The position numbers and the translations under genes were made by a program. The notes under the pieces were generated by a model. That model was not told the origin of the DNA and did not search any database. It saw nothing but the letters and a program-made list of their open reading frames with translations. Positions 12,223-62,642 of a stretch of 64,000 nt of DNA are shown here, piece after piece. How positions within the stretch are numbered: the stretch's first letter is position 1; each line of letters opens with the position of its first letter. Origin of the DNA: Botryococcus braunii (lineage: Eukaryota; Chlorophyta; Trebouxiophyceae); the NCBI GenBank assembly GCA_002005505.1, contig MVGU01001480.1, forward strand, positions 1 through 64,000. Direction: 5' to 3'.

Positions 12223-12226
<4 letters not shown>
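11809..12226. other. Short spacer with a GGAA repeat
   Basis: It contains about five GGAA units near 11881-11900 and otherwise unique sequence. No coding evidence. Confidence 0.3.

Positions 12227-12295
<69 letters not shown>
12227..12295. repeat. (TG)n microsatellite
   Basis: About 34 uninterrupted TG units following GCGCGCGCGTGTGAG. Polymorphic-type repeat with no gene. Confidence 0.95.
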
Positions 12296-12298
<3 letters not shown>

Positions 12299-22845: not shown

Positions 22846-22863
22846 CTTCCCCTTGCCTTTTCC

Positions 22864-28116: not shown

Positions 28117-28127
28117 GCTGATGTTAC

Positions 28128-28652: not shown

Positions 28653-28696
28653 CGTAGGCTCGGAACATACTTTCAGATGCCCAGCTCAAGAGTTGG

Positions 28697-28709
28697 TGGG
28701 CCCATAACC
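28697..28709 (-). promoter_or_regulatory. Primer-binding site of B (half initiator tRNA-Met)
   Basis: Minus strand GGTTATGGGCCCA, immediately after the LTR end TGTACA. Complementary to the initiator tRNA-Met anticodon arm. Confidence 0.9.
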
Positions 28710-29414
28710 TGTACAATTCTGGGCGTAATGTTCCCTGTATGACCCGGGCACGAAGGGTGATTAGCTCGTCGGTACTCTTGTTGTGTGTCGGAGAACAAGC
28801 AGTGACCGAATGTGAATGAGGACTTGATAGGCAACAGTCAAGAGATAAGCACCCGAAGTGCCTTTAATGTCCCAATCAAGTGATTACAATGCTACTTGCT
28901 TTCTCTCATCGCTCTGTAATTCAAACTACTTAATCTACGTAACTACCGATAGTCTGCATTATCCGTGTTCAACGAGGAAAACATTAGCATCAACTTAACA
29001 ATATTACCTAGACCTTTCCTAACCCATTGTCAATGAGGCTTCAGTCTCTTAACGTCAGTTTCCCTGTATGACCCGGGCACGAAGGGTGATTAGCTCGTCG
29101 GTACTCTTGTTGTGTGTCGGAGAACAAGCAGTGACCGAATGTGAATGAGGACTTGATAGGCAACAGTCAAGAGATAAGCACCCGAAGTGCCTTTAATGTC
29201 CCAATCAAGTGCCTCGTCCTTGCACGCCGGCGTCATAAATCCTTTCTAGCAAACCGTGTCTAATTACCTCATCCTTCCTAATCAGTGTACAATTGGTCTA
29301 GATGGGATCCGGCAAAACTCCCAGGTTCTGCCACCTATTAATCATTGAAGCTGATCTGGCCACTATTACTCTTCTGAGGGAAAGGCACCAAAATGTTCTG
29401 TCACTATTATAACA
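28710..29414 (-). repeat. 5' LTR of B
   Basis: 705 bp, same internal 152-bp duplication as the 3' LTR. It carries T where the 3' LTR has A near 29363. Confidence 0.95.
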
Positions 29415-32270
29415 ATAGATTACCGTCCCCTCAACAAAATCACCATCTCTGATAGATACCCTCTACCCAGAATTGATGACCTGTTAGATAAACTTAAGGG
29501 AGCAAAAGTGTTTTCAAGCTTGGACTTACTGTCTGGATACCATCAAGTGCGACTTCGCAAGGAGGATGTGCCTAAAACTGCCTTCAGGACCCCTTTTGGC
29601 TTGTACGAATTTCTTGTACTTCCCTTTGGTTTGACCAACGCGCCCGCGACTTTTCAACGGCTTATGAATGAGGTTTTTCACGACTTTATAAGGGAAGGAT
29701 TTGTGGTGGTGTATTTAGATGATGTGCTCATTTACAGCAAAACGGAAGATGAACACTTGGGGCAGTTGGAGAGAGTTTTCACCCGTCTGCGTGAACATCA
29801 ACTCTTGGCAAAACTTGTTAAATGTTCTTTCTTTGAGAACCAATTGAAGTACTTGGGACACATTATTGGTGCAAGTGGATTGGAAGTGGATATGGATAAA
29901 GTCAAGGTGGTGCAAGAGTGGCCTTCACCCACAAACGTAACGGAAGTTAGAAGGTTTTTGGGGTTGTCTAACTATTTTCGCAAATTCATCCAAAACTATA
30001 GTATCCTAGCAACCCCATTGACCGCTCTCTCTGGAGCAAAGGCACCTTGGAAGTGGGGACAGGAGCAACAGGAAGCATTCACCAAAATCAAGGAAACATT
30101 GGTAAGAGCCCCTATCCTGACACTCCCGGATGTACGTCGGCCATTCAAGGTGGTGTGCGACGCATGCGATTACGGCGTGGGAGCTGTGTTGTTTCAAGAT
30201 GGGAAGGTTTGTGCTTATTTTAGCAAGAAGTTGGGAGCAAGCGAGAGGAACTACAGTGCCACGGAACGGGAATTATTGGCTGTGGTGTATGCTCTCACGG
30301 AATGAAGATGTTATCTTTTGGGGAAGCCAGTGACAGTGGTAACGGATCACAAGTGTAATACCTTCTTGGGTCAACAGGTTGGGCTTAGTCCTCGGAGGGC
30401 TCGGTGGGCCGAGCGCCTGCAGGAGTTTGAGATTGAATGGGTATGGGAACCGGGAAAGACCAACATTGCGGACCCGCTCTCCAGGTGTTTCACTCAACAT
30501 GGTCACCCTGGATCTGGGGGGAGGGACAATGGAGTAGTGGCCGGGGTTGCCCTCCGGCGCAAGCGTACGCGCCCCTCTCCGGACTGCCTCACCCCCTCCA
30601 GCTTGGATGCAGCTCGGTCCCGCAAGGTTCGAAAAGTCACGGAGCCCGCTCAGGATGTCCAAGACCCCCTCGGCACGATGGAGCAAATTGGGTTGGCCAG
30701 CCCAAGTGAGCTCACCCCCGATACCGATGGGTACGAAACCTTACTTGGAAAACTTGGGAAGGCTTACACAGATGATCCTTGGTTGGCAGTGCGCGCGAAT
30801 CGTCGGAAGGTTAGTCTTAAGGGAGGCTTTTGGGAAAGGAATGGACGGAAGTATGTTCCTGCATTGTTTGAGGAAAGGAAGAATGGGGAACTTGTTGTTG
30901 AGAATCTGCGACGTGGAATTTTGGAAGCATTGCATGACCCGCCTCATGTTGGCCACCCTGGAGTAACTCGCATGTATGAACTTCTCACAAGGGAATGGTA
31001 TTGGCCTGGAATGTATGAGGATGTCAAAGCCTATGTTGCTCATTGTGACTCTTGTCAGCGGGTCAAGGCTCGGAATACTTTGCCTGCTGGTCTTCTTCAC
31101 CCTTTACAAATACCAGTCAGGAAGTGGCAAAGTTTGTCCATGGATTTCATTACTAATTTGCCAAAGACTCCCAATGGAAATGACGCTATTTGGGTTGTCG
31201 TGGATAGGCTTAGCAAGTGTGCTCATTTTGCAGCTACAACCATGAATGCGGATGCTTATACGGTGGCACAATTGCTAAGGACACGGGTATGGATGTATCA
31301 TGGATATCCGGAGGAAATTGTTTCTGATCGGGACCCCCGCTTTGTGAGTAAGTTTATGAAGGCGTTACATGAACTTACGGGATGTCGGCCTGCCCTTTCA
31401 ACTGCCTTCCATCCTCAAACAGATGGGCAAACTGAAAGGACAAACCGCATTTTGGGAGACTATCTGAAACATTATGTTGCAGATCATGGAAGGGATTGGG
31501 ATAGTTATTTGCCCGAAGCCGAATTTGCGTACAATAACTCTTGGCAAACTTCTATCAACACAACACCCTTCAGGCTTACATATGGTCAAGAGCCGAACGT
31601 CCCGTTTGCAAATGGGCACTTGGGAAAAACTGGAGTTGGGAGTGCGGATGAGTTTGTGAGGAAGATGGGTTTGGACATCCGACGGGCACAAAAGTTTTTG
31701 GCTGCAGCCCAGGACCGGCAAACTGCCTATGCAAATAGGCGTCGCAGCGATGTGTCGTTTGCGCCGGGTGACTACGTGCTTGTGGATCGGGACTTCTTTG
31801 CAGTTCACAGGAAACTTCCACAGAAGTTTGCGCCTCGGCGTGTGGGACCCTTCAAGGTCCTTAGCTCGCCTGGCCCCAACGCGTACCGCTTGGAGTTTCC
31901 AGACGGCTACGACCGGTATCATCCGACCGTGAATGTCAACTTCCTCACCCCCTACCGTACCGCTGATGTCGCACGTGTGCGTCCGCCGCCGCCGCCCCCG
32001 CACCTCGTCAACGACCATATCGAATACGAGATTGGTGGCATTGTGGACCACAAGCCACTCATGGACGACCGCGGCCGCACTCTCTACGACCCGGATGGGA
32101 CCCCGCATATGCAATACCTTGTGCGATGGAAAGGTTACACGCCCGACGACGATACGTGGGAACCACTCACGAATTTTACGCGCTGCCGCCAGCAAGTGGA
32201 GCAGTACAGAGGGAGTCACGGGTTGCCTCCATTGCCTCCCAGGGGCACAATCCCTCGGATTCGCCCTTAG

Positions 32271-34101: not shown

Positions 34102-37100
34102 CTAAGCGCGCCTAGCGCGCTTCCGCTGCTTCTCAGCATTTTTACCACGTCCTTTACGTTTCTTGTCCACCTTTTCTTTTTGTTCCGGCCTGTGCTCCGT
34201 GGTTAAATCCCAGTACCGCTGTAACGCCTCCCTGGCGTGTTCTAAGTTATCCTCTGGCTCCCAAGTATTATGAATATCCTGATACCCGGTCCACTTTACA
34301 AGATATTCTCGCGCAGTTTTTCGACCTCGTAACTTTCGTTCCCTATGAGCTAGCACAGCCTCGACCTCATACTCCTCTTCTCCATCAATAATCTCAGGTA
34401 GAGGAGGAGGTTGTACCGTCCCACCTTCCTTATAAGGCTTAAGCATAGAAACATGGAAGACATCATGAACCCTCAGAGTTTTTGGAAGGCTAATTCTGAA
34501 AGCTACCGATGATACCTCCTGGACGATGGGAAAAGGCCCAATAAACCGAGGTAAGAGTTTTCTTGTCCGAGTATGCTTGAATTTCAGATTCTTTGTTGAG
34601 AGGAGGACAGGTTGGCCTATTTTTAAAATAGGAGCATCTTTTCTCCTCGCGTCCGCATATGCCTTCATGCGGTCCTGCGCAGCTTTGAGACATGTCCGCG
34701 CTCTTTCTAGATCCCATCTCATCCTTCGTACAAACTCTGCTGCTGCCGGTACATACTCACGTGCAGCAGATGTCACACCTTCATAGACTTCCTGGAAGGG
34801 AATCGTGGGATCCTGACCGAAAGTCAACCTAAATGGAGTAGTGTTGATTGATTGCTGAAAAGTGTTGTTGTAAGAAAATTCAGCTTCACACAAATGTTTA
34901 TCCCAGTCGTTGTGTCTTCCAGTGACGTAATGACGCAAATAATCCTCCAAGATCCTATTAATTCGTTCCGTTTGACCGTCGGTCTGCGGATGAAACGCTG
35001 TAGATAGCGCAGAGCGACAACCGGTCAACCGAAAGAGCTCTTGACAGAAGCGACCCACCCACCTAGGATCTCTGTCTGATACAATGTGAGTGGGAAACCC
35101 ATGCAAGGTGAAAACCCGGGTCCGTAACAGTTGAGCTATCACTTCTGCACTTGCGTCAGTGGTCGTCGGAGCGAAGTGCGCATACTTTGACAACCTATCA
35201 ACAGCAACCCAGATAGCGTCATATCCTTCCTTAGTTCTTGGCAGTCCAGTGATTAGGTCCATAGACATTGATTGCCACTTTCTGTCAGGTATTTCTAGAG
35301 GGTGTAGTAACCCTACAGGTAAGTGTGCTGGGGCTTTGACACGCTGACACGAGTCACATTGGGCCACAAAGTCAGCCACATCTGAGGCCATCCCTGGCCA
35401 CCACCAGGAACGTTGAACTAATTCGAGGGTCCTGTCCCTGCCTGGATGACCAACTATAGGTGGTCCATGCAAATTTTCCAGGATTTCTCTACGAAGGTTA
35501 CGTTCGACACCGTCAGAACTCATATGGTGGGAGGGAACGTAAATGCGCGCACCGCGCTTCCACAAGCCACTATGGAAGCTTAACTTGCGGCGATTTTGTT
35601 TACGATGGAGCCAATCATCTATCTCATATGCCTCACTTAAAACCCTTCCCCATCCCCTCAACCCATCCATCGGCGTGGGTAGGGTGGTGGAGTCTGCAGC
35701 CTCGCCAACCCCCATCGCTCCTACTCCGACAGGGGGAGAGTGCTCCCCCAGGGGCCCTGCCCAAGCCTGAACCGACGCCTGAACCCCAGCCTGGGCCCGA
35801 GCTAGGGCTCGGACGTGGGCCCCGGCTAGGTGAGGACTCCTAGACAATGGGTCAGCAGGGTTAGTGGATCCCGGCGCATATTCCCATTGGATGTCGAATA
35901 ACTGTAGAAACTCCGCCCAGCGCGCCCGTCTGGGTGAGAGTAGGGTTTGGGTTTGCAAAAAACTATTCGCGCGATGGTCCGTAACAACTGTGAAAGTTTG
36001 CCCTAATAAGTAACACCTCCACTCCTTGAGGGCATACAACACACCTGCAAGCTCTTTCTCAGTTGTGGAATAATTGCGTTCGGCATTACTAAGCTTTTTA
36101 CTGAAGTATGCTACAGGTCTACCTTCTTGCAATAGTACTGCACCCACCCCATAGTCACTGGCATCTGAGATCACTTTGAAAGGCTTGCTACTGTCTGGGA
36201 GTGCTAGTACAGGAGCATTGGACAAAGTTTCTTTTAAACTTTGAAACGCGTGCTCTTCAGCTTCTCCCCACGTCCAAGGAACTTTGCCAGTGAGCCGGGT
36301 TAAGGGGGCCGCAAGCGTACTGTAACCCGGGACGAACTTGCGGAAGTAGTTGGCTAGTCCCAAGAATTGTCGTACGTGCGTGCTCCCCGTGGGTGTTGGC
36401 CAGTCCACAATAGTCCGAACTTTGGCAGGGTCAACTTTGATGCCGTCGCGCCCCACGACATGTCCCAAATACCGCAACTCGTCAGCAAAAAACTCACACT
36501 TGGATAATTTTGCATAAAGTTTTTCCTCTCTCAGCCGAGTAAGGATGCGAGTTAAGTGCTCTAAGTGCTGTTCCCTGGACTTGCTGTATACCAACAAATC
36601 ATCTAGGTAAACCACAACAAAACCCTCTCGAATAAAATCATGGAACACACTGTTCATCAGTCTCTGAAACGTGGAGGGAGCATTCGTGAGACCAAAAGGA
36701 AGCACCAAAAATTCAAATGAACCTAAGGGTGTTCTAAAGGCGGTTTTGGGAACATCGGATTCATGTAATCGCACTTGATGGTAACCTGACAAGAGATCAA
36801 AAGAGGTAAAGAACTTTGAACCCTGCAGCTTGTCCAGAAGATCGTCTATCCGTGGCAACGGATATTTGTCCTTCCTTGTTAAGTTATTAACTGCCCTGTA
36901 ATCTATAACCATTCGGAATGTTCCGTCTTTCTTTCTCACAAACAATATGGGGCTACCATACGGTGATGCACTCGGCCTGATGAAACCCTGTGCTAGTAAT
37001 TCCTCAACCTGCCTCCGACACTCCGCCACTTCTGGTTCAGCCAACCTATAAGTGGGGCGACAGGGCGGCGTATGGCCGGGTGTCATAGGTATAGTGTGCA

Positions 37101-38247
37101 AGATGCCCCTGTCTGGAGGTAAATCTGGCAATTTCTCTGGAAAAACATCCAAAAACTCTAACAACAATTGCTTCAAGTCTTGTGGCTTGTCAGTCATACC
37201 CTCAATAACACGCCGGGAGTTTTCGTTTAAATCTAGGCCGGTGGCTCCGCTGTCTTCGTCCCAAGGATTATCCCCCTCTGTAGTTGCCACTGCAACCCTA
37301 TGGAGATAGTGTGTTGCACAAACTGAGTCCTGTCCACTCCTTGCCTCTCGCACAACCCCCCAAAACCCTGGACAACCCTTTCGCATAGCCCGCCTAGCTT
37401 GACCCTCACTTATAACATTCACTTTTTGCGCCGGTAAGGTACCTCTTTCACTAGGGGGCAGCGGGTTGAGGAGTGTAATGTAGTGTGAGGAATGAGGCGG
37501 TTTAAGATGAACTGCGCCATGATTGTAGTCAATTAAAGCTTTTCTTTCTTTCAAAAAATCCTCCCCAAGGATTAAGTCCACCCCATCCAACAGAGTTTCG
37601 CAGACAATGAAATCCCTCTGTTCCACATATGTTTGAGATAAGTGCACCCTGAGCTTAGCTGTCCCCGCCGAGCGCATGGTCTGTCCATCTGCCAGCTGGA
37701 CATCCACACACTTCTTTGACAGCCTCACTCCGAGAGTAGCTAGGAAGTCTTGTCTGACGAACGAGTGCGTCGCCCCGGTATCGACTAAAGCGACGCCCTT
37801 CACACCAGTACAGTTAACATGAAAAAGCATTGCTAAATGCCTATTTGAAAAAGCTTGAGCAAAAGATACGCTAAATTTGGGTCCGGCATGGTAAACTACA
37901 TAGGAGTAGGGGACATCAGGTCCCTTGGTACCTTGCAGGATAACTCTCATGCCTTTTAGCCATGGGTACACTGCCTTGGATTTCGCCACTTTACCACCCA
38001 TTAGAAAACAAGCACTTAAATGTTTATTTGCTTGTTGCTCACGAGCGAAAGTGGATAAGGTGTCCTCCGCTTTACCTATAGGTACTGCAACAAATGTCGG
38101 TTTAGACGTTCCATCGGGTAGGGTATTGTCAAAGGGGCCTCTAGAAAAAGAACAATGCAAAAACTCAGAACAACGTTGCTCGATAGAAGAATGAAAAGAT
38201 TCCCAAGGAACAAAAGTGTGGAGGTTTCCTTCTCTAACTCCACTCAT
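34102..38247 (-). CDS. Chromovirus E Pol polyprotein, intact
   Basis: 1381 residues. Protease (LVDTGATHSFV, about 154-164); reverse transcriptase (GFIRPSASPYGSPILFVRKK, YLDDLLVYS near 555); RNase H (SDASDYGVGAVLL, VTDHRANSFL); integrase zinc (HPGRDR...CDSCQRVKA); catalytic core (SMDLITGLP, VSDRDPRWVG, TDGQTERINRIL); GPF/Y-like region (LLPRFIGPFPI); C-terminal chromodomain (EYEVEAVLAHRERK, YLVKWTGYQDIHNTWEP). The basic tail (KKRKGRGKNAEKQRKRARRA) looks like a nuclear import signal. The start codon overlaps the gag stop as ATGA at 38247-38244, which suggests termination-reinitiation or a -1 shift for Pol expression. No breaks. Confidence 0.95.
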   Translation of the reverse strand: MSGVREGNLHTFVPWESFHSSIEQRCSEFLHCSFSRGPFDNTLPDGTSKPTFVAVPIGKAEDTLSTFAREQQANKHLSACFLMGGKVAKSKAVYPWLKGMRVILQGTKGPDVPYSYVVYHAGPKFSVSFAQAFSNRHLAMLFHVNCTGVKGVALVDTGATHSFVRQDFLATLGVRLSKKCVDVQLADGQTMRSAGTAKLRVHLSQTYVEQRDFIVCETLLDGVDLILGEDFLKERKALIDYNHGAVHLKPPHSSHYITLLNPLPPSERGTLPAQKVNVISEGQARRAMRKGCPGFWGVVREARSGQDSVCATHYLHRVAVATTEGDNPWDEDSGATGLDLNENSRRVIEGMTDKPQDLKQLLLEFLDVFPEKLPDLPPDRGILHTIPMTPGHTPPCRPTYRLAEPEVAECRRQVEELLAQGFIRPSASPYGSPILFVRKKDGTFRMVIDYRAVNNLTRKDKYPLPRIDDLLDKLQGSKFFTSFDLLSGYHQVRLHESDVPKTAFRTPLGSFEFLVLPFGLTNAPSTFQRLMNSVFHDFIREGFVVVYLDDLLVYSKSREQHLEHLTRILTRLREEKLYAKLSKCEFFADELRYLGHVVGRDGIKVDPAKVRTIVDWPTPTGSTHVRQFLGLANYFRKFVPGYSTLAAPLTRLTGKVPWTWGEAEEHAFQSLKETLSNAPVLALPDSSKPFKVISDASDYGVGAVLLQEGRPVAYFSKKLSNAERNYSTTEKELAGVLYALKEWRCYLLGQTFTVVTDHRANSFLQTQTLLSPRRARWAEFLQLFDIQWEYAPGSTNPADPLSRSPHLAGAHVRALARAQAGVQASVQAWAGPLGEHSPPVGVGAMGVGEAADSTTLPTPMDGLRGWGRVLSEAYEIDDWLHRKQNRRKLSFHSGLWKRGARIYVPSHHMSSDGVERNLRREILENLHGPPIVGHPGRDRTLELVQRSWWWPGMASDVADFVAQCDSCQRVKAPAHLPVGLLHPLEIPDRKWQSMSMDLITGLPRTKEGYDAIWVAVDRLSKYAHFAPTTTDASAEVIAQLLRTRVFTLHGFPTHIVSDRDPRWVGRFCQELFRLTGCRSALSTAFHPQTDGQTERINRILEDYLRHYVTGRHNDWDKHLCEAEFSYNNTFQQSINTTPFRLTFGQDPTIPFQEVYEGVTSAAREYVPAAAEFVRRMRWDLERARTCLKAAQDRMKAYADARRKDAPILKIGQPVLLSTKNLKFKHTRTRKLLPRFIGPFPIVQEVSSVAFRISLPKTLRVHDVFHVSMLKPYKEGGTVQPPPLPEIIDGEEEYEVEAVLAHRERKLRGRKTAREYLVKWTGYQDIHNTWEPEDNLEHAREALQRYWDLTTEHRPEQKEKVDKKRKGRGKNAEKQRKRARRA

Positions 38248-39692
38248 GGCCTACCGCGTCCCCTTGCCCGGCCCCGTCCACGGCCCCGTCCTCTGATTCT
38301 CCGTCCCCGTCCGGCCCCACCCTGTGCTGTCCACCCTTGCATAGGGGCTGCTCCCACACCGAGGGACCTAAAGTTGTTGTGGCCCCCTCCTACCCGTCGC
38401 CGCAGCAAATCACCAGCCAGACCTGGAGTTGGTGGAGCAGGCTGGTTTACCTCCTGTCTGGCCTTCACAATGTGTTGCAAGATGTCCCACTGTTGTTGAT
38501 TAAGATAGGCGTTAGGGTCCTCTCTAAGTTTTTTGAGTGGGCAAAACCAAGATTCATGGCCAGGGGTATTGCACGCGTAACAGCTTCTGTTGAGGGGAAA
38601 GGCAACTCTAGTGTCCCTCCGATACTCGGGAGGTAAACCATCCCTGCGGGGATAAGGAGTCGCGCCTTGGATCGCGGCGACCGTGGCGAGCGGCGCAGGG
38701 TAACCATGGGCCATCTGGATTGGCGCTGCCACCATCGGTGCAGCTGCCATCATCCCAAATTCATGACTGTAGTAGGGGATTGTCCAGTCCTGTCCGACGC
38801 CAGCAACGTGCGGTGCTGGGCCAACGGTGGCGGTTGCAATGCTTGAGTTAGGGCCCCCGGGGCCGGGGCCGGTTCTCAGTCTCTTTGCCTGTAAGGGCCC
38901 GCCCACCGCGGCATCGTACCGAGTGAGTAAACTTATCAAGGCATCCAAATCATCAAAACCTTTGCCTGTTGTAGGGTTAATTGCTGAATATTTCTTTAAA
39001 TCCTCACGTAGGCCTTTACGAAACCTATGGATTTTCTCCCCCATGGATAGGTCCCCACTGACTTCTACCTCTGCTAGCAAGGTTGTAAAGCGCTCAACAT
39101 ACTTCTCAACTGATTCGTTGCCCTGATATACGGAATCAAGTTTATCCCTTGCCTTTGCAACCTTATCAGTGTTATCATAGACAGAAGACAACAGATCCCC
39201 AAAGAGAGCTAAATCCACGACAGCACCTGGATTTTGCCTCATGTAAGCTGCTTTTTTGGTAAACCACACCTTTTTCACGCTCTTTCCTAAACAGCGCACT
39301 GCGTAATCAACCCTGAGGTTCGCGGGCACACCGGTGAGTTCACAATATGACCTCACATCGTCTAGGAATTGTTCGAGATCGTCCCTGCGTCCCTCGAATT
39401 TTTCCGGTAAATGCGTTCGAACTGTCGGGATTCTTGCCTGTGGGTTCGCGGGGTTTTGAGCCGCGACTTCAGCGTTTTCTGCCTGTTGTCGTAACTCAGC
39501 CAGTTCGGCAGCCATTGCCGCTTCACGCCCCTCGGCCTCGGCCAAAGCAGCCTGCAGCTCTTCGACTTGTCGTCTAGCCATTTCTGAGCTGTCAGTGCTG
39601 GCGAGGCTCGGTGACACAGGAAATCGAGAAAGTCCGGGTGGGGGCCCTAAACTCGGTGACCCGAGTCGTAGGCCCCTAAAAGCGCCACACAC
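38244..39692 (-). CDS. Chromovirus E Gag, intact
   Basis: 482 codons from 39692. The N-terminus has a heptad-like Ala/Glu helix (about 40-75, VEELQAALAEAEG). The capsid-like region holds VYQGNESVEKYVERF and GFDDLDALISLLTRYD, as in D. The CCHC knuckle is CYACNTPGHESWFC. The C-terminus is Arg-Gly rich (GRGRRIRGRGRGRGRARGRG) for RNA binding. ATG at 39635 is an alternative start, after the Ser-rich leader and just before the coiled-coil region. Ends in TGA within the ATGA overlap with pol. Confidence 0.9.
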   Translation of the reverse strand: MCGAFRGLRLGSPSLGPPPGLSRFPVSPSLASTDSSEMARRQVEELQAALAEAEGREAAMAAELAELRQQAENAEVAAQNPANPQARIPTVRTHLPEKFEGRRDDLEQFLDDVRSYCELTGVPANLRVDYAVRCLGKSVKKVWFTKKAAYMRQNPGAVVDLALFGDLLSSVYDNTDKVAKARDKLDSVYQGNESVEKYVERFTTLLAEVEVSGDLSMGEKIHRFRKGLREDLKKYSAINPTTGKGFDDLDALISLLTRYDAAVGGPLQAKRLRTGPGPGGPNSSIATATVGPAPHVAGVGQDWTIPYYSHEFGMMAAAPMVAAPIQMAHGYPAPLATVAAIQGATPYPRRDGLPPEYRRDTRVAFPLNRSCYACNTPGHESWFCPLKKLREDPNAYLNQQQWDILQHIVKARQEVNQPAPPTPGLAGDLLRRRVGGGHNNFRSLGVGAAPMQGWTAQGGAGRGRRIRGRGRGRGRARGRGRP

Positions 39693-40175: not shown

Positions 40176-41300
<1,125 letters not shown>

Positions 41301-41871
41301 GAAGGGAACACTGTAATAATGGTTTCACTCACACTACCACCGATGTCCCAACCCTTTCAAGCCAATGCTTGTAACCCGTAACTCAAATTCCATTTCAAAT
41401 TACCTTGAGGAAGACGTTGATAAACATCGGAAAAGAGGAGGCTAAGGTACATGCCGAAAAGATCAACTCCTAGACAGGATGGAGGCACCAATGGGAAAAA
41501 GGGGAAATATCGTAACAGAAAGAAAGATAGGGGGCGAGGGAAGGGAGGTAGAAGGGCGCAAGAGGGAGAGAGTGAAAAAGGGGGAAAGGGAGAGATGATA
41601 GGGGAGAGAGCAGGTGGGGGGGGGGCAAACTGTGACAAACAGACATGCAATCGCACGCATGCACCCCCCCTCCCCAACACACACAGACACAGACACAGAC
41701 ACATACACACACACACACATACACTCACTCTCTCTGCACATATCAAGTACAGGCAAAAATGCCTCAGGGCTTGTTACACCCTGACACTGATGGCGCAGCA
41801 TAGATCGATTGGACCCCAACTCAAGGAAACAATACAATCTAAATAGGTCATTGAAGAAGGCACAGTAGAAA
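41301..41871. other. R interior, purine-rich spacer
   Basis: A GGGA/GAAA-rich stretch at about 41480-41640, then (CA)n-like sequence at about 41671-41735. No coding evidence on either strand. Ends with the 8-bp target copy AGTAGAAA of the hAT-like element. Confidence 0.5.
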
Positions 41872-42494
41872 TAGAGTTGGGCAACTACGCGTTCCGTACC
41901 TACGCGTACGTACAAAAACCGTAGAAAAATCGTACGTAGATGGGATCCAACTACGGATGCCTACGCATGTTGTTTTCATGTTTTTGGGGGATTTTGCGCG
42001 ATTTATGCCATTGAAAACATAGTCTATAATAAAATCTTTATTCAGTAGCTGCGTTCGTGTGTACATGGACTCTTTTCGGTACTTATGGTGTCCGATCATG
42101 CTTATCCGACCTGGCAGAAGTACACCGGACTTCTGCCGTACTGCAGTACAAATGTACTGTGTTGTATAAAATGCGGTTTTTTGTTTTCTTTGACAAGTTT
42201 TTTATTTTTTATAGGGATGAAAGGCATTAACTTTGATAGAAACAACCTCTACAGTGTCTGACTGGACATGCAAAGCGAAACATACTTGAGTTTTTCCATG
42301 TGCCAACAGGCCACATTTTGCTACAAAAGTGGATGAAGATGGAAGAATTTCCATGAACTACGCCGGGCAATATTAACCACTAGGATGTCCTTGATCGAAT
42401 GGTGCACTCTGCCGCGACCTACGCGACCTACTTACGCCTACGCGTAGCAAATACGTACGTAGATCGGCAAAAATCGTAGAAAATGCCAACTCTA
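41872..42494. mobile_element. hAT-like non-autonomous element, 623 bp
   Basis: Terminal inverted repeats TAGAGTTGG (41872-41880) and CCAACTCTA (42486-42494), continued by imperfect TACGCGTACG-rich inverted sequence. It is flanked by a perfect 8-bp duplication AGTAGAAA (41864-41871, 42495-42502). The 8-bp duplication and terminal sequence fit the hAT superfamily. No transposase, so it would depend on one supplied in trans. Confidence 0.88.
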
Positions 42495-42502
42495 AGTAGA
42501 AA

Positions 42503-45217
<2,715 letters not shown>

Positions 45218-50941: not shown

Positions 50942-52566
50942 TGTTGAGTTGTGAACATACATTATAGAATGCCTTGTGCTTTAAGGTGATCTTCAAATGT
51001 ACATTATTAGGATACGGGTCCACTATCCACATAAGGTACCTCCAGACACGTTCGGATGAGGTCTATTTTCGAACATAAGGTACAATCTGATCTAGAATAC
51101 GCGTTAGTGTGAAAGGACTATTAAAGCTGCGATCACCGCATAGTCGAGCAACTGGTTTGGAAAGATACTGGGCACATAAGGATGCCAGTCTTGTTCATGC
51201 AGTTGCATGTGTCTAAAGAGCAGACAGTCGTCAAGGACTGTAGCTGGAGAGGCACGAACTTACGACCTGTCTGCTTGCTTACAGGTGCGGTGACGCAGGG
51301 TGTGTATTGGTAATGTGTTCATGTTTGATTGCTTGTTTGTAAGTGAATCATCTTAGTGTACAATCAAGTCTCTAAAACAGCTAAGGGACGGAGTCTTGAT
51401 TGAGTATAGGAAGGCACTTGCTTTCAGCCGTCAGGAGCTTATCCGTGTGTAGATGCTCATTGACAGATCAACATGTAACGGAACTGGTTTGGAAAGATAC
51501 TGGGCACATAAGGATGCCAGTCTTGTTCATGCAGTTGCATGTGTCTAAAGAGCAGACAGTCGTCAAGGACTGTAGCTGGAGAGGCACGAACTTATGACCT
51601 GTCTGCTTGCTTGCAGGAGACGCCACCAGTGAACGACAACCCGTACGGGAACCGTACGGGTTGGCGAATTTCGGTAGGGGTCCCGTACGGGTCGCCTAGG
51701 GGGGATACGGCTTACCCGTTAGAATTCATCAGATTCTGGTAGCGAAATACGGGTCATACCCAACGGGCTAAGCGGAAGTCTTACGGCTTACCCGGGAAAT
51801 ATTCTATTCTATCGGGACAACTCTAGGGGTCGACTTTACATGACTGATGACATTAATGCCGTGATTATGCCGTGATTATGTAGGCCTCTGCGGTTCCTAT
51901 TGGGGCGATTTGTGGCCTTATTTGCCCGATGTAGCATGAAAACCGTGTCGAGGAATCCCAAGGTCCAGAAGGGACTCAGCCGAAAGTTTCGGCCCGAAAC
52001 CCCTTTGGTTCCAAAGTCAAGGCACGTGAGACCCATGTGACAGTATTGACAGTTAATGTCGCGCACCGCATTTGCTGGCGAAACATTGATGCAACAAGTT
52101 CCACGATAGGATATATCATTCATGTTTACTGATTAGTGCATTGGCAAAAGATTGGGGCATCCGGAGTTGATTTTTCTACGTTCGCAGACGCGCCATCCGG
52201 AAAAGATTGTCGACGAAAGCAATATGAGGAGATGGAAACGAAGCAAGCATATGTCGGGTGTAATAAAGTTCAAATGTGCTGATATTGCTGAAAAATGTGC
52301 TTTGGATGCATACGGAATCACTGCTAGTCCTTCGAGGAACCCTGAGCGGCCTCAAGATAATCGCGGCCTAATTTTGCGCAAATTTCGCAAATTTAGCGAC
52401 CCATGCAGCTTTGACTTCGACATACGGGTAACCCGTATGTTTTCCCACTTCCCTTCAGAGGCGTAGGGGTACGTCCCAGGCGGTGTTCCAGACCCACAGG
52501 GGTTTAGCCGTACGGGTTTTCAAGAGGCTGTCGAACACTGGACGCCACTGCCCATAACCTTTTACA
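50942..52566 (+). repeat. 5' LTR of copia element F, with hAT-like insertion
   Basis: The likely start is TGTTGAGTTGTG at 50942; the end TTTTACA at 52566 directly precedes the primer-binding site. Without the 914-bp insertion and its 8-bp target copy the LTR is about 703 bp, close to the 705 bp of B. It contains a 135-bp segment twice: 51150-51284 followed by GTGCGG (a possible 5' splice site) and 51482-51616 followed by GAGACGCC and the LTR end. Confidence 0.75.
51627..52540. mobile_element. hAT-like non-autonomous element, 914 bp
   Basis: Ends CAGTGAACGACA (51627-51638) and TGTCGAACACTG (52529-52540) are inverted repeats with two mismatches, with subterminal AACCCGTACGG inverted motifs. 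It is flanked by the perfect 8-bp duplication GACGCCAC (51619-51626, 52541-52548). CAGTG ends and 8-bp duplication indicate the hAT superfamily. No transposase; it contains CCCGTACGGG palindromes. Confidence 0.88.
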
Positions 52567-54089: not shown

Positions 54090-54737
54090 TGTGGATCCTG
54101 CAAGATCCAGTTTGTATTTAATATTATAGATCACAGAAGATGAGACATACACATGTGTCATCCAAGTAAGTGAATACTTTCAATATCAACACCATTGTAT
54201 GATGGAAGCAGTTTAACAGGTCAGTCTGATCTCCTCTTGATCTGAAACAATGCATTCACGATGCCAACACAGATGAGAGTTAATTGAGGTCAGGCTGAGA
54301 GTCAGTGTTTGAGACAACAAAGACGTTTCACAAACACTACGGATTGACTTACACCGGGCAGTATACGACACTGGCCTATCTAACGATTACCTGCAAGATC
54401 CAGTTTGTATTTAATATTATAGATCACAGAAGATGAGACATACACATGTGTCATCCTGTGCATGTTACACACTTAGTATCTTGCTGGTAATTCACACACG
54501 ATCACTTGTTTGCAAACCAACGTGCAGCGTAAACTGCTTACCAAGTAAGTGAATACTTTCAATATCAACACCATTGTATGATGGAAGCAGTTTAACAGGT
54601 CTGCACATTAGCAAGAATATTTCTTAGTTAAAGTCACCAAACAGCACTTATGGCTGCTGGAATAACGTAAGCGACGAACATGCGCCTCACCAGTCTGATC
54701 TCCTCTTGATCTGAAACAATGCATTCACGATGCCAAC
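54090..54737 (-). repeat. Partial LTR G2 (inverted), unspliced plus spliced leader copies
   Basis: Minus strand. Related to the LTR of G but opposite in direction. Spliced copy: 54347-54222, 54221-54163, 54162-54098 joined without gaps (126, 59, 65 bp). Unspliced copy: exon 1 part 54737-54691, intron 54690-54601, exon 54600-54542, intron 54541-54456, exon 54455-54391. A 43-bp GT...AG spacer (54390-54348) separates the copies. LTR end GGATCCACA at 54090, next to F coding sequence. Cut at 54737 by the start of the G LTR. Confidence 0.85.
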
Positions 54738-55838
54738 TGTTGGAATTTGTGTACTGTCAGGACAATCCAAGGATGACAAATTTTAACCTGAATAAATTAG
54801 CTGTATAGTTGACCATGTGTTCAACTCAAGGGAAACTCTTTGATAAACAGCCAGTGACATTTATGGCCACAAGTAGTAATGGATAAAGTATATAAGAACA
54901 TGGTAGAGAAGGACTTTCCTGTTGTTTGTGGCTATTAAAAATGAGTTTATCCAAATTGTTAATAACGTGATAAACTCAATTGGGTTAAGGGCCAATTTCC
55001 AAGGCTCTGAACCTGAACTCTGATACGAATTCATGAAAAAGGGCCAGAACAGCGCAAGTCAACGCGCTGGTCTGATAATACTAGGAGCGACTGACCGAAG
55101 TCTCAAGCAGTCAATCCGTTGTGTTTGTGAAACGTCTTTGTTGTCTCAAACACTGACTCTCAGCCTGATCTCAATTAACTCTCATCTGTGTTGGCATCGT
55201 GGATGCATTGTGTCAGATCAAGAGGAGATCAGACTGGTGAGGCGCACGTTTGTCGCTTACGTTATTCTAGCAGCCATAAGTGCTGCTTTACTGAATTTAA
55301 CTAAGAAAGTATTCTTGGTAATGTGCAGGCCTGTTAAACTGCTTCCATCATACAATGTTGTTGATGTTGAAAGTATTTACTTACTTGGTAAGCAGTTTAC
55401 GCTACACGTTGGTTTGCAGACAAGTAACCGCATTTGAATTACCAGCAAGATACTGATTGTGTAACATGCACAGGATGACACATGCATATGTCTCATCATC
55501 TGTGATTTATAATATTAAATACAAACTGGATCTTGCAGGTAATCGTTAGATAGACCAGTGTCGTATACTACCCGGTGTAAGTCAATCCGTTGTGTTTGTG
55601 AAACGTTATGTTGTCTCAAACACTGACTCTCAGCCTGATCTCAATTAATTCTCATCTGTGTTGGCATCGTGGATGGATTGTGTCAGATCAAGAGGAGATC
55701 AGACTGGCCTGTTAAACTGCTTCCATCATACAATGTTGTTGATGTTGAAAGTATTTACTTACTTGGATGACACATGCATATGTCTCATCATCTGTGATTT
55801 ATAATATTAAATACAAACTGGATCTTGCAGGATCCACA
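54738..55838 (+). repeat. 5' LTR of copia element G, unspliced plus spliced leader copies
   Basis: Starts TGTTGGAATTTG, ends GATCCACA. Unspliced copy: exon 55111-55236, intron 55237-55328 (GTGAGG...TGCAG), exon 55329-55387, intron 55388-55473 (GTAAGC...CACAG), exon 55474-55538. A 43-bp GT...AG spacer (55539-55581) follows. Spliced copy: 55582-55706, 55707-55765, 55766-55830 directly joined; then an 8-base tail and the primer-binding site. Region 54738-55110 would be U3, with the promoter. Confidence 0.85.
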
Positions 55839-56479: not shown

Positions 56480-58307
56480 TCCATCTAATCCACAAGTAAA
56501 TCAACCCTCAGCTGGTAATACTAGTCAGTCTGCCCAGTCAGGTAATAGCATAGATCAGACAAACCCTGTTTATACCAATCTAAAATTGGTTCAGGCGTTA
56601 GACCTGGATTGTGAAAACGGCTTTAGATGGCATAAAGATGTTCTGAATGTTGCTAATAGCAAACGTATTAAGATGTGTCTAGACGAAGAGCATCCTAATA
56701 CAGCAGGAGACTCTCTTGCTGTGAGTCTTCTAACTGAGAAAATTCCTGACGTTTGGGTGGACAGGGCATTGGACATGCCAAACGCAAAGCAGGCCTATGA
56801 CTGGCTGCTGCGCAAGTTCACTGGTGGCCACAATGAGGAGTTAATGAGGAAATGGTCCAAGGTCTTGGACTATGGGCGTATCGATGAGGGTCAGGAGTAC
56901 CATTCATATGTTGCTAGGAAGTTCAGGATTGCAAGAGGTCTACAAGCCAATAATCACCCATGCTCTGATGGTAGGCTAAAAATGGGGATTGTAGAGGGTT
57001 TGCCCAAGCATTTTGACCATGCCAAATCAAATCTCTACACCTCCTGCCTTGGTGAGGATGAGGACAAGGTCACACTCAATATTTAGGCATGTTCAAGGTT
57101 GCTTGGAATTGATGAATTTAAGGCCCCCTCACCATCAGTCAATCTTATCAATCCAGTCAGAGGTCCCCCTCGTCCCAGGAACGCTCCAGGATCCAGGCCA
57201 CCGGGGATGCCAGAAGATCTGCCTGACAACTTCAGGGGCTGCTGGCACTGCTTGGAAGATGGACATACCAGAAACGTGTGTCCAAAACTTACAGCTGAGA
57301 AAGAAAAAAGGGCTGCCCTCATTTCAGCACGCAAGAACCAAGCCAATCCAGTTGGAGGTATTGCATTGGGGGACTCTTCTGACTCAGGTAATCCATTCTC
57401 TAGATGGGTGGTAGACTCAGGAGCCTCAACACACATATGCAATGATGTTAGACTAATGCAAAACATTCACTGGTATACACAGCCAAAGGGTCTAAATTTG
57501 GCAACTGGTGAACATGTTGCACAACGCAAGGCATGTGGTTCTGTGTGCTTAGTAGATGAAATGGGGAACATGTGTAAAGTTAAAAACGTAGAATATGTAC
57601 CTACTGCAATTGAAAATTTGTTGTCGGTCTCTAGTGCAGTAACAGATGGCATCATGTTTACAAACAATTCACATGGAGAGATTATTAGTATGTACAGTAA
57701 TGCCTCAAAATTCATCTCTGAAGTCAGAAAAGTAAGAGGACTGTACTTTGTTTACTGCTTGTGCTGCAAAATTCAGCTCTCACATAGTGTTGGATATGCT
57801 CACAAATGCTCTGAATATGATTTGTGGCATCAACGCTTAGGACATCCAGGAAGTAAAAACCTGGAACGACTGCAGATTGAGGATATGGTGAAGGGAATAG
57901 CTACATCTTTGTCTCCTTGCTTACATGGTCATTCACTGTGTGATGTGTGTGTGATGGGCAAGCAGACTAAAGAGAGCTACCAAAGATCCCCAGTATCAGC
58001 AACTGAACGTCTTCAGCTGTTGCACTTGGATGTAATTGGTGAGCTACCAATTCCAGGAGCTGAGGGTGAACGCTACATGCTCACATTTCTAGACGATTAC
58101 TCTAGAGCTGGTGAATTGTTAGCATTGACTTCCAAGTCCCAGGTGGGTGGTGCTGTTAAGTCAATCATCCTGTACTTGGAAAATCAGACTAATCACAATG
58201 TTAAGGTGGTTAGGTCTGATAGGGGAAGTGAGTTTGTAAATGCTGACTTGCTTGACTTTTTTCAGTCTAAAGGGATCAGACATGAAACGTCTGCTCCTTA
58301 TACCCCT
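56445..58307 (+). pseudogene. Copia G gag-pol, stop in gag and truncated in integrase
   Basis: Gag from ATG 56445 (VLNVANSKRIKMCL, EELMRKWSKVLDYG), TAG at 57084-57086, then same-frame continuation with a CCHC knuckle (CWHCLEDGHTRNVC), protease (WVVDSGASTHICND), GAG-pre-integrase (LWHQRLGHPGS) and integrase (HLDVIGELPIP, VRSDRGSEFVN). It ends at APYTP where the LTR of element H begins (58308), before the third catalytic acid. If H is an insertion, the rest lies beyond the window. Confidence 0.85.
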
Positions 58308-59810
58308 TGTTGTATAAACTGATAGGTACGTATAGATACGTGATGGCAAACGTACAAGTTACAGGGGCGCTATCAGTTTATCAAGTGGTTTTAGGAAACA
58401 TTGTATATCTGAATTTCTCCACGTGTGGAGTACAAGTAAAAAGATGCGCCTGATTGCGTGTCAAAGGGTATTGTATTATGTTCAGTTAGGTTGATCATAT
58501 AAGTGACCTCCATGCAGTACAGGTCTTGTACTAGTGACGGTAAGGTCACAAGGTAAAGACTCCATTGAGTGTGTACGCGTGTATAAGTATGAGATCCCTG
58601 GTGCAGCTATAGAGCTACACGTTGGCATAGGGCCAAGTCAGGGTTGTTTATGTGACCATGCAGTACGGTACAGCCTCTCGAAAGGAACTGTACCGTTACC
58701 GCCGGTTACGATCAGAAGGCATAGAAACGCCAGATCGCGAGCAAGCTTGGCAGTCGATGGGGTGTGGAATGCATCTGGGCTTCGAGCTCCAAGCTGAATA
58801 GTGTTTGCTCTGTATTGAAGGACTGCTTGATATACTGCTGTCACATTCATTTCAATACAGGTAAGCTTGCGATCGCTGGCAAGGGTAACGGTCGCAGTCG
58901 TGTGGCTGCGATCGTAGGCGTTAAGCACATGCATACTGATGTTTCTGCTGATTATGAAACATTACATGTGTCTTGTGTTGCAGGAGCTGCATTGCTTGTA
59001 TGTTACTGTTGTGCGAACAGTAAGGCTATTTGTGTGTGACGAGTTGCACACTGGTTATAGCAGTGAGTACAGATACGTATAACAAGCATGCTCCTGCTGG
59101 TTAAATAACTGTTTTGTTTTGATCTCTGATGATCCACATATTGTGCAGATTGGTTGGGAGTAGCCATTAAACTCCTGGGACTGCTGAAGGGCCAAGGGTG
59201 TCCTGATCGGAGAGCAGTCGGTACGTACACATATGTGGATAGGTTGCGTGTGTGTTTTATGTGGTTTAGATATATTTTATGGACACTGATGAACCCACAA
59301 GTAAATCGTAACGCTCGGATGCAGGCAGATATAGACGGCAGTGCGAGCACTGGTCTATATAGACATTGAGATTACTTGGTGGTGTTCACAGGTAAATATA
59401 CGTAAACCATTTGTAATCAGTCGATGGGGTGTGGAATGCATCTGGGCTTCGAGCTCCAAGCTGAATAGTGTTTGCTCTGTATTGAAGGACTGCTTGATAT
59501 ACTGCTGTCACATTCATTTCAATACAGGAGCTGCATTGCTTGTATGTTACTGTTGTGCGAACAGTAAGGCTATTTGTGTGTGACGAGTTGCACACTGGTT
59601 ATAGCGATTGGTTGGGAGTAGCCATTAAACTCCTGGGACTGCTGAAGGGCCAAGGGTGTCCTGATCGGAGAGCAGTCGGCAGACATAGACGGCAGTGCGA
59701 GCACTGGTCTATATAGACATTGAGATTACTTGGTGGTGTTCACAGGAAGTGATTCTCCTACGGCATACGCACCGCTTACAGTTACGGCATCCTCCAACTA
59801 ATACACAACA
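58308..59810 (+). repeat. 5' LTR of copia element H, unspliced plus spliced leader copies
   Basis: Starts TGTTGTATAAACTG, ends ACACAACA. Unspliced copy: exons 58754-58860, 58984-59062, 59149-59220, 59325-59391 (107, 79, 72, 67 bp) separated by introns 58861-58983 (GTAAGC...TTGCAG), 59063-59148 (GTGAGT...GTGCAG), 59221-59324 (GTACGT...ATGCAG). A 29-bp GT...AG spacer (59392-59420) follows. Spliced copy 59421-59745: the same four exons, same lengths, no introns. Tail 59746-59810. The first 446 bp would be U3. Confidence 0.9.
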
Positions 59811-59812: not shown

Positions 59813-59825
59813 GGTGCTGGGCCCA
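59813..59825 (+). promoter_or_regulatory. Primer-binding site of H, variant
   Basis: GGTGCTGGGCCCA, differing from the common GGTTATGGGCCCA at two bases (TA replaced by GC), two bases after the LTR end. Confidence 0.65.
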
Positions 59826-59836
59826 CAACTTGCTGC

Positions 59837-60817
59837 ATGCCAGAGGAGGAAGTCATTGTGATCGAAGATACACCGGAACCTGAAGAGCAACGGACGCCGA
59901 GACCTTTCCCAACAACGAGAGGAAGAGGACTGCGACCTGCAGTACGTCAACAGCATCCAAGAAGACCGGAATACTCAGAGTATCCCATTCCTTTTGTCAG
60001 GACTCACTTTAAAGTTCCTGACTATTTTGGAGACCCGGGTCTGTATATTCATATTGAGAGGCCTGGTGTTCCAAAGGGTCAATTTCAAAGGCCAATTGTG
60101 CATCACCAAGACATTGTGCTGAACAATCTTCCTGATCCTGTTGAACGAGCAAACTACATCTTTGTTAAGACTTGTGAAAGTGAAGAAGGGTCCGCTCTGT
60201 GTGAAGGAATCATATCAACGGCATTCTTGGCTGGTCTGACACAGCCACGAGAGGAGCCCATTTTGGTCAAGTGGGAGGAATTGATTGTGTTCAGTGATCC
60301 CCTTGCTGATAGCCTGGTGCATGAGGTAGCAGAGCTATACGGGAAGAGCCTTCCAAAAGAAGACTGGGAGGTGCACTATTTTCTGAAAGTGTGGAACCGT
60401 TTGCAGGAGTTATTTAAGCTAACTGCAGACGGGCCACTGGAAGGTTTTCCTTCGTTCTTTCTCGACAGAGCTATTGTTGAGGGAAGAGAGGGAACAGGAC
60501 AGGTACTCAGGTGGTACAGAGAATACCACGTGTATATCGAGCTGGTACAGTTCCAGTTCCGTTTACACCAAGGGCAGAGTAAGGCAGTATTTGACCGACT
60601 GCCATCATGGAGGGAGGTGGAGGAGCTGGGACTCAATCCGTTGCGGCTCCATCCGGATTACTTCCAGACCTACGAGGGGATCTCACGGGGGTGGCTGGAA
60701 CCAGTGATGGGGTTACAGCGACTGACATGGGAAGAGATTCAGGAGTTGGAACAGCAGTGGCTAGGGGATCTGAACCGGCCAGTACATCTGGCCGGGAAGA
60801 TCCGACGAGTCCAGTGA
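59837..60817 (+). CDS. Copia H ORF1, unrecognised 326-residue protein
   Basis: ATG at 59837, 11 bases after the primer-binding site; TGA at 60815. N-terminus acidic then Arg/Pro-rich (about 1-50), followed by a mixed globular-looking region (YFGDPGLYIHIERPGVPKGQ, WEELIVFSDPLADSLVHEVA, WNRLQELFKL) and a Trp/Glu-rich end. No known domain. Its last 211 bases overlap gag in another frame. It is longer than the ORF1 of A, B and G and not clearly related in sequence, though at the same position. Uninterrupted over 326 codons, which supports a real protein. Confidence 0.7.
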   Translation: MPEEEVIVIEDTPEPEEQRTPRPFPTTRGRGLRPAVRQQHPRRPEYSEYPIPFVRTHFKVPDYFGDPGLYIHIERPGVPKGQFQRPIVHHQDIVLNNLPDPVERANYIFVKTCESEEGSALCEGIISTAFLAGLTQPREEPILVKWEELIVFSDPLADSLVHEVAELYGKSLPKEDWEVHYFLKVWNRLQELFKLTADGPLEGFPSFFLDRAIVEGREGTGQVLRWYREYHVYIELVQFQFRLHQGQSKAVFDRLPSWREVEELGLNPLRLHPDYFQTYEGISRGWLEPVMGLQRLTWEEIQELEQQWLGDLNRPVHLAGKIRRVQ

Positions 60818-61763
60818 ACTCCAGTCTGCAGGTCACCACCTCCTTAGATAGACTGGGTTTTTCGTTGGACATCTGGAAACAAAATGTGTTCCATTGTGCC
60901 GTGAGCAGGAATGTGCTGGAATGCCTAAAAACGTCCATGCCGGGGACTAAAGGGGATGCAGTGGCACTGCATTTGTTGCTGCAAAAGGTTCCAGAAGTGT
61001 GGGCTCAGAAGGTGGCATTTGCTGAATCTGCAGCAGTGGCATTTAAATGGATTATGAGCCAGTTCCAAGGGGGAGCAAACTTGGAAATCAATGACCAATG
61101 GCTGGAGCTGTTGGACAGTGAAATAATGGGGAATGAGGGCACGTTGGAAGAATATGTGGCTAGGAAAGAGCTGCTGGCAAAAAGACTGAACGATAACAAC
61201 ATGCCAGTAACGCAAACAAAACTCAAGAAGTCAATCCTGAAGTGCCTTCCGTACCAGTTTGATGCTCATAAACCAAGTTTATCTTCTTCCACTGCTACAT
61301 GCAATATTAACCAAACCTTGGCTGCTATAAGGGTGGTTGCAGAAACCATTGGTTTCAATGATCAGCAACCAAGGGCTCCAAGGGCGGCTGTTGTCCGCAA
61401 GCCGGGTCCGGCTGTCAGGAACGATAATCGGACATGCTATGAGTGTGGTGAGAGGGGGCACATTAAAGTGAACTGCCCAAGACTTGTGCACCCTCCTAAC
61501 CGAGGTAACCCACCCACTGGAGAAGAGGTAAATCCAAGGGCAGGGATGGCATCCTCAAAGTTACAAAACACTGGGGAAGGGCAGTGGATTGTTGACACGG
61601 GTGCTACTAACCATATATGCAATGATTTGCATTTAATGTCCAATGTCATTGTTTATGATGAAGCCAAACCACTGGGACTAGCAGCGAGTGATGGTCAAGG
61701 ATTGCGAAAGGCACAGGGAAATGTGTGTCTATCTGTGCAAGGTGGGGGAAGTGTGTTGCTTAC
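60607..61763 (+). pseudogene. Copia H gag-pol, truncated in protease
   Basis: ATG at 60607 inside ORF1 (211-base overlap, different frame). Gag region (LGFSLDIWKQNVFHCAVS, NLEINDQWLELLDSEI), CCHC knuckle (CYECGERGHIKVNC near 61435-61476), protease (WIVDTGATNHICND near 61590). Open without stops until the LTR of I begins at 61764. The first roughly 75 codons are low-complexity Gly/Ser/Thr and constrained by ORF1, so an internal later start is possible. Confidence 0.8.
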
Positions 61764-62642
61764 TGTTGAATGAATTGGTCAATACTGTACTTAGTGACAT
61801 CCCCTGTCACATGCCATCAACAGCAGTGTAAACTATAGCCGTTATAGCCCTTTATGAACGGTATAGATCATACTCGTACCTCAATGACATAACACGTGAC
61901 TTGTACGATATGCGTTCTCAATAGACATTACGTATGGTAGTACTTTAGGATCCCTGCAGTCCGAGCCATCCCTGGGCAGCCCAGGAACGGCTCGGTACTT
62001 GTCCGAAGCATGTTGGTATCCTTGACCAACCTCTACTGTTGGAGAGTGCTGTGTGCTGTTCCTGGAAACGTTGTAGCGTGGACGGTTTTTCCCACAGGCT
62101 ACGAAGTGACGCTGCCGTCGTGCCATCACTGCAGGTGTGTTTAGGATTCTCAAAGCCGTTCCAGATATGATTGTGCTCAAACATTCAGACCAGTTAGATA
62201 TTACTGCTGTGTGCATTGATGAGAGTGCATGACGAGAGCGCACTGAATGTTTGACCTCATTGAGACTTATGTTGACGTCCACCGTTGTGGCGGTAAGATA
62301 GTTTCACTGTACAAACATCACAAAGAGACCTTGCTGAGTTACTGATGAACTATTATTGTATTCTAGTGACGTAAAGTAGACATCGCAAGGCCTCTTTGGT
62401 GCTGAACTCTGCTATCAGGCAAGGCGTAGTGTTACGTGGTCTTTAGCAAGAGTGAGAGCAGTTAAGATCATTTGTAAGACTTGTCCGAAGCATGTTGGTA
62501 TCCTTGACCAACCTCTACTGTTGGAGAGTGCTGTGTGCTGTTCCTGGAAACGTTGTAGCGTGGACGGTTTTTCCCACAGGCTACGAAGTGACGCTGCCGT
62601 CGTGCCATCACTGCAGGTGACGCCGCAAGCAGAAATGCTTGA
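61764..62642 (+). repeat. 5' LTR of copia element I
   Basis: Starts TGTTGAATGAATTGG. A 138-bp segment occurs twice, 61997-62134 and 62479-62616, separated by a 344-bp interval that begins GTGTGT and ends TTGTAAG, so it has GT...AG limits. The second copy is followed by a 26-base tail (GTGACGCCGC...) and the primer-binding site. The 3' end does not show a CA, so the exact LTR end is approximate. Confidence 0.75.

Follow-up and report, generated by a model that had tools for sequence, protein, structure and literature searches.

How can a retrotransposon that is copied through RNA keep introns in its own long terminal repeat (LTR)? Introns in retroviral transcripts are normally removed before packaging (PMC2266726), and RNA-based copying should therefore erase them. 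The question is raised by the LTR of an element, here called H, in the green alga Botryococcus braunii. H lies in bases 1–64,000 of contig C477 of a 176-Mb assembly; this whole stretch is referred to as the window, and all counts below come from this one genome. The original prediction held that the LTR carries an intron-containing leader followed by a precisely spliced copy of it. This finding is real, and it is broader than first described.

The 5' LTR of H is 1503 bp long (58308–59810; plus strand, like all H features below), beginning with TGTTGT and ending with ACAACA. Its limits were set from paired LTRs and their flanks. The 3' LTR lies on the same contig beyond the window (C477:71826–73330), and both members of this TG...CA pair are flanked by the 5-bp target-site duplication CCCCT, seen at 58303–58307 and again immediately 3' of the 3' LTR (L010). 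Judging by the flanking sequence, H appears to have inserted into the pol region of another copia-like element.

Four blocks within this LTR (58754–58860, 58984–59062, 59149–59220 and 59325–59391; 107 + 79 + 72 + 67 = 325 nt) recur joined together at 59421–59745, as predicted, with 323 of 325 bases matching. A matching A and G upstream of each copy extends the repeat, which begins at 58752 and 59419. We refer to the interrupted copy as R and to the joined copy, 59419–59745, as R'. The region 5' of the repeat is U3 (58308–58751), presumed to contain the promoter, and A58752 is the presumed start of transcription; the base preceding it is C in 40 of 40 H LTRs. Exon 1 of R (58752–58860) is repeated at 59419–59527 and is followed by exons 2 (58984–59062), 3 (59149–59220) and 4 (59325–59391). 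The three intervals between the blocks, predicted as GT...AG introns, have canonical borders: intron 1 at 58861–58983 (GTAAGC...TTGCAG), intron 2 at 59063–59148 (GTGAGT...GTGCAG) and intron 3 at 59221–59324 (GTACGT...ATGCAG). All three are missing from R'. Both mismatches between R and R' are private to the window copy among the 40 LTRs. One is at 59062, the last base of exon 2, where this LTR has A and 39 of the 40 have G; the other concerns 59330, whose counterpart in R' is T in 39 of 40. A non-canonical intron 2, considered on account of the A at 59062, was dropped, this A being private.

A donor (GTAAAT) also follows exon 4, and an acceptor (TTCACAG) closes the joined copy, so that the stretch 59392–59745 is intron-shaped as well. 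This putative intron 4 would enclose TGTAA (59412–59416), the presumed poly(A) signal, a variable 2-nt seam (59417–59418), presumed to be a scar of strand transfer, and the whole of R'. Relatives of H with a single exon fit this reading: their R ends at GT, their R' ends at AG, and the interval between these borders is the only intron they have. The copy stands upstream of the primer-binding site (59813–59826), as had been stated, but not directly before it, since the 65 nt of the U5 tail (59746–59810) lie between. As far as can be read from the DNA, duplication at the DNA level cannot yield an R' that lacks three GT–AG introns exactly. A simple tandem duplication, incapable of removing three introns, was accordingly dropped, and the proposal that the second copy came from spliced RNA is upheld.

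Was the spliced copy made long ago, or does it continue to follow R? We analysed 40 H LTRs, the best 40 of 193 candidates obtained with the intron-bearing stretch as query. The presence of R in all of them is due to this selection; that of R', in 40 of 40, is not. Five sites distinguish subfamilies; comparison of R with R' within each LTR shows agreement at them in 40, 39, 39, 40 and 40 of the 40 LTRs, and a 2-nt insertion (TC) near the start of R, carried by 18 H LTRs, shows R/R' agreement in 40 of 40. Over 13,000 compared positions, R and R' differ at 43, and 21 of the 40 LTRs have no difference at all. A similar pattern was found in 17 single-exon LTRs, whose own R and R' are 95–100% alike, while R is mostly 79–94% alike between families (copies of one family reach 97–100%). 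Because R and R' of one LTR resemble each other more than R does between families, R' appears to have been renewed since the families split. One R/R' difference is common to both LTRs in 3 of 12 H LTR pairs. Such sharing is expected under the cycle proposed below, in which the 3' LTR of the parent would supply R and the 5' LTR would supply R'.

H is not alone in having this design. The primer-binding motif GGTTATGGGCCCA has 1906 matches in the genome, compared with one for the reversed control. The first 40 of 100 listed matches, with C1:1876 and C1:82345 left out, gave a sample of 38 LTRs, in which only those repeat blocks were counted whose copy ended within 900 nt of the primer site. In 35 of these 38 tRNAiMet-type LTRs, R is followed by the GT of an intron containing TGTAA, then by an R' ending at AG, and then by U5; they have both R and R' instead of the conventional U3-R-U5 order, in which R occurs once and lies contiguous between start and poly(A) site. 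This recurrence, together with a position of the copy inside a fourth intron that also holds the poly(A) signal, goes beyond the original prediction and is supported by the sequences compared. The LTRs form 12 clusters (80% identity over 200 nt), each of which holds at least one LTR with the R/R' design. Most clusters have one exon, three clusters have three and H has four. R is related across many of the single-exon clusters, and the 12 clusters therefore do not represent 12 independent inventions. When one LTR was taken to represent each of the 12 clusters, 17 of 18 borders fitted GT–AG and only the first intron of L067 did not; with the slip allowed for terminal-type borders, random positions fit in 2.6% of cases.

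Eight LTRs within the 64-kb window carry the design. Besides that of H, these are a three-exon LTR at 55109–55830 (plus strand; R' at about 55580–55830), one with three blocks at 54097–54737 (minus strand; putative borders), and single-exon LTRs on the plus strand at 61997–62616 (R 61997–62134, R' 62479–62616), 51150–51617 and 2861–3335, the last more diverged, with 8 mismatches in a 164-nt block. The remaining two, at 22155–22642 and 28724–29211 (both minus strand), are the LTRs of an open-frame copia element at 22864–28116. The three-exon LTRs at 54090–54622 and 55307–55838 are oppositely oriented, with arms 93–94% complementary and about 0.7 kb between them. Elsewhere in the genome, H LTRs form an array at C41:398000–419000 with a spacing of about 6.7–7.0 kb, in which adjacent LTRs belong to different subfamilies.

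The position of TGTAA suggests where the RNA would end. UGUAA is described as the poly(A) signal of late-branching chlorophytes, with a peak around 17 nt before cleavage (PMC1868727). In each of 35 LTRs sampled from other families, TGTAA starts 4–14 nt upstream of R', and in none of the 35 does it stand ahead of R; it occurs in 2.4% of random 18-nt windows from the same stretches. Given this placement and the distance of about 17 nt, the RNA would reach about 10 nt into R' of the 3' LTR, and these first ~10 nt of R' would make up the terminal R. Just before R' lies the seam, the most variable spot of the region, with 8 forms among the 40 H LTRs. It reaches 0.98 bit per column, compared with 0.01–0.07 in the end of U3, the exons, the introns, the linker and R', and 0.32 in U5, which is of two types. 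The form of the seam is identical in both LTRs of 12 out of 12 H pairs, which indicates that the change was probably made no later than the copying itself, as the first strand transfer would give. Matching 5-nt target duplications are found in 11 of the 12 pairs; L027/L032, situated in a three-LTR array with unmatched flanks, is a presumed pair.

The architecture, its frequency in the sample, the R/R' covariation, the seam and the primer complementarity are all seen directly in the DNA. We consider it highly probable that they reflect a cycle in which the leader is spliced and spliced strong-stop cDNA rewrites R' in the 3' LTR, while promoter and introns are kept. The LTR would be ordered as U3, R with its exons and introns, the last intron with TGTAA and R', and U5. 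Transcription would begin at the A of R. Splicing of the 5' leader would include a step that uses the donor behind R and the acceptor that closes R'. The product would be R-U5-primer-binding site, and with the last intron the 5' end of the RNA would lose its poly(A) signal and R'. In the 3' LTR, the transcript would be cut about 10 nt into R', upstream of the last acceptor; because cleavage would precede this acceptor, the last intron could not be removed at the 3' end. A half-tRNAiMet would prime strong-stop cDNA on the spliced leader, and the end of this cDNA would anneal to the short stretch of R' with which the RNA ends in the 3' LTR. Spliced RNA would thus serve to rewrite U5 and most of R', whereas the linker, the introns, R and U3 would be taken from the 3' LTR. 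The start site, the splicing, the cleavage inside R', the transfer to R' and the order of the steps are what we infer from the features above. The covariation and the seam agree with the earlier view that the leader is spliced and that the copy serves in first-strand transfer, except that only its first ~10 nt, not all of it, would act as terminal R; they likewise support the idea that the intron-bearing LTR is renewed with the help of its spliced copy.

Some features count against the cycle, among them the misfit border of L067 and two mismatches in the primer site of H. In addition, introns 1–3 of H carry complete splice sites within the 3' LTR, where splicing should be able to remove them, and the retention of these introns, or of introns 1–2 in the three-exon families, is not explained by the cycle. 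Possible ways out would be an unspliced partner RNA or a splicing that depends on nearness to the cap. The former leads to a version, compatible with the main model, in which two different co-packaged RNAs contribute, one the spliced 5' end and the other the unspliced 3' end. Retroviral particles contain two RNAs, and such a transfer between molecules would account for the survival of the internal introns in the 3' LTR. Single-exon families would have no need of it, since cleavage ahead of the last acceptor would by itself protect their intron, and we regard it as conceivable but doubtful.

Not all LTRs have kept the complete design. The exceptions among the 38, L057, L082 and L087, are all U3-R-U5. 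In L087, R and U5 are joined exactly at the splice border, as its intron-bearing kin reveal; L057 and L082 have a different U5, and intron-bearing kin of theirs are absent from the sample. With L087 as query, the best 40 of 1622 candidates were all intron-less, and the form is numerous. A search with the joined sequence as query yielded five H LTRs made of U3, exons 1–4 and U5, with all four introns missing at their exact borders. They belong to a presumed three elements, namely two presumed pairs (C48, C598) and one 5' LTR (C365), and their placement on the tree requires three label changes, two of them forced by well-supported branches. Intron-less LTRs are the product that a spliced strong-stop cDNA would give on landing on R and not on R'. 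They are not clean proof of such an event, because a deletion between R and R' yields the same product. The idea that each intron-less LTR proves a spliced template was dropped in view of the mixed elements of the 51150 family and of the H LTRs L122 and L124.

In this last case, L122 lacks the linker and R' only, and nothing is missing from its mate, L124; in L123 the same parts are lost. Where one LTR alone has lost parts, deletion between repeats is likelier than strand transfer, and the losses of R' in L122 and L123 look like later ones. With regard to the check proposed on other H copies, the spliced block is thus found in 40 of 40 sampled LTRs and missing from these two, a minority of those read. 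In the family of the LTR at 51150, we compared, among the matches listed on C1–C63, 93 of 473 junctions with 100 of 533 donors, and 28 of the 93 listed junctions had no exact donor copy upstream. The coordinates suggest mixed elements, five of them spaced 6.0–6.4 kb and two at 10.7 and 12.4 kb; the last two may not be single elements. Intron-bearing and intron-less copies of this family are intermixed on the tree, where support is weak, and the intron-less LTRs are numerous and may be spreading by themselves.

Other H copies have incomplete or additional parts. Where the exon-1 donor lacks an exact downstream junction (L113–L117), four of the five sequences break off within the leader and one is complete; where a junction lacks an exact donor (L118–L121), four of four keep the linker ahead of R' together with exon 4 or a part of it. 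Two LTRs contain tandem units: L125 has linker and R' twice, and L126 has R and intron twice ahead of R'. Both would fit a failure to splice the last intron as well as unequal recombination. Further tandem LTR units are present at C48:418128 and 418460, going by coordinates only.

Repeat-mediated change of this kind bears on a rival account of the design, namely that the spliced leader was copied once or a few times in the past and that R and R' have since been homogenised by gene conversion or recombination. The mixed elements, L122 with its complete mate and the tandem copies show that changes between R and R' that look repeat-mediated do exist. Conversion, however, would have to homogenise four short exons separately while leaving the introns between them untouched. 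The seam, variable among elements and the same in both LTRs of 12 of 12 pairs, points instead to a copying step, and the adjacency of TGTAA to R' in 35 of 35 LTRs would be left without a reason. We therefore rate a purely historic origin as improbable.

Even less credence is given to the alternative that the joined copy serves as a separate leader and has a start site of its own, the upstream part being an alternative promoter and conventional transfer using another R. The start sites are putative, which gives this reading some room. R' is preceded by TGTAA and a variable seam, unlike the sequence ahead of R, and two independent leaders would drift apart, yet R and R' agree. An artefact, whether from chance borders or from the assembly errors that the original prediction had named as a danger to the block borders, can practically be set aside: the design is present on many contigs and in members of 12 clusters, far above the random level, and assembly error was dropped on this ground. 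A cycle that continually rewrites R' from spliced RNA is thus the explanation we retain.

Which primer and which class of element are involved? The primer-binding site of H reads GGTGCTGGGCCCAC, a variant form of GGTTATGGGCCCAC; the latter is complementary to an internal part of tRNA-Met. The site of H has two mismatches to the common form. Two tRNA-Met genes hold the complement of the primer sites internally, away from the tRNA 3' end, over 20 nt in the case of L058; by its sequence, the matching tRNA was judged to be the initiator. The anticodon arm deduced from the primer sites has three matches in the genome, two of them called tRNA-Met, and the land-plant form of the tRNAiMet anticodon arm has none in this genome. 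Searches of the window for tRNAs and for Rfam matches at gathering level were negative, as was a comparison of six peptide patterns with viral contigs. GGTGCTGGGCCCAC is common among H copies; L043 has GGTTATGGGCCCAC and another subfamily has GGTCATGGGCCCAC. The last ~35 nt of U5 (in L053, L056, L058 and others) often contain GCCCATAACC, which is the tRNA-sense counterpart of GGTTATGGGC, the primer site next to it. The end of the LTR and the primer site could form a hairpin here, or U5 may have captured tRNA sequence.

H has a purine tract ahead of its 3' LTR, in addition to the primer site complementary to an internal part of tRNAiMet. Its gag-like ORF with a zinc knuckle (60607–61773), after which the LTR of the next element comes, matches PF00098 at 23.2 bits (cut-off 20.8); PF14223 reached 20.7 bits (cut-off 27) and PF22936 also stayed below its cut-off. 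In the copia element at 22864–28116 (minus strand), an unbroken polyprotein frame of 1750 amino acids with R/R'-type LTRs on either side, the integrase lies upstream of an RVT_2-type reverse transcriptase, as in copia. The SH3-like and RVT_2 domains exceed their cut-offs, and rve scores 31.0 bits (cut-off 32.6). H and its relatives fit the Ty1/copia type, with the domain order taken from 22864–28116 only, H itself being interrupted. A protein search with the copia polymerase of the window found named relatives in the green algae Micractinium, Tetradesmus and Haematococcus, and also in land plants and fungi; taken with the TGTAA pattern, this is in keeping with a green-algal host. The window further contains Gypsy-like gag-pol frames, recognised by eye, at 34102–39692 (minus strand) and at 19830–22003 plus 29508–32270 (plus strand), the latter interrupted by the copia element 22155–29211, and long tracts of simple repeats (GT, CT and related) at 10294–12300 and 40200–45000.

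Taken as a whole, the sequences suggest a self-renewing processed LTR: R' would be rewritten in every generation, introns and promoter would persist, and the poly(A) signal would be spliced out in the 5' LTR and obeyed in the 3' LTR. It seems likely to us that tRNAiMet-primed copia elements generally replicate in this way here, and perhaps in further green algae as well. If true, one device would solve both the loss of introns and the problem of the 5' poly(A) signal. The spliced copy and the seam would then form a DNA record of splicing, start site, poly(A) site and strand transfer that is readable without RNA, and a spliced copy of an LTR leader behind a poly(A) signal is a signature to seek in other genomes. 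In openly licensed PubMed Central papers, mostly represented by titles and the starts of abstracts, we found no description of an LTR with a stored spliced copy of its leader.

Among known systems, the elements resemble Ty1/copia, and Drosophila copia in particular, in having integrase before reverse transcriptase (22864–28116), TG...CA LTRs, a 5-bp duplication (H) and a primer site internal to tRNA-Met. Priming by a half-tRNAiMet is known from Drosophila copia. A standard LTR has R once and no intron, whereas the LTRs described here have R twice, in intron-bearing and in spliced form, and their presumed poly(A) signal is intronic. According to a 2025 review, LTR elements of plants are generally intron-less, Ogre and EVADE being exceptions whose introns make subgenomic RNAs through alternative splicing (PMC12786077). 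On that description, they share with the algal elements the presence of functional introns, deduced in our case, in an LTR retrotransposon; they differ in that here it is the leader in the LTR that contains the introns, with a spliced copy kept alongside. Split-intron retroviral vectors pass a splice donor from the 3' to the 5' LTR (Ismail 2000, as described in PMC3182074). In that account, these vectors are engineered, have their acceptor outside the LTR and come with no mention of a renewed spliced copy.

Retroviruses share the problem that both LTRs are identical and yet only the 3' one may end the RNA. They silence the poly(A) site at the 5' end, HIV-1 by means of its major splice donor and HTLV-1 by folding of R. 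In the algal elements, unlike HIV-1 and HTLV-1, the 5' signal would be spliced out of the RNA, and the 3' signal would take effect ahead of the last acceptor.
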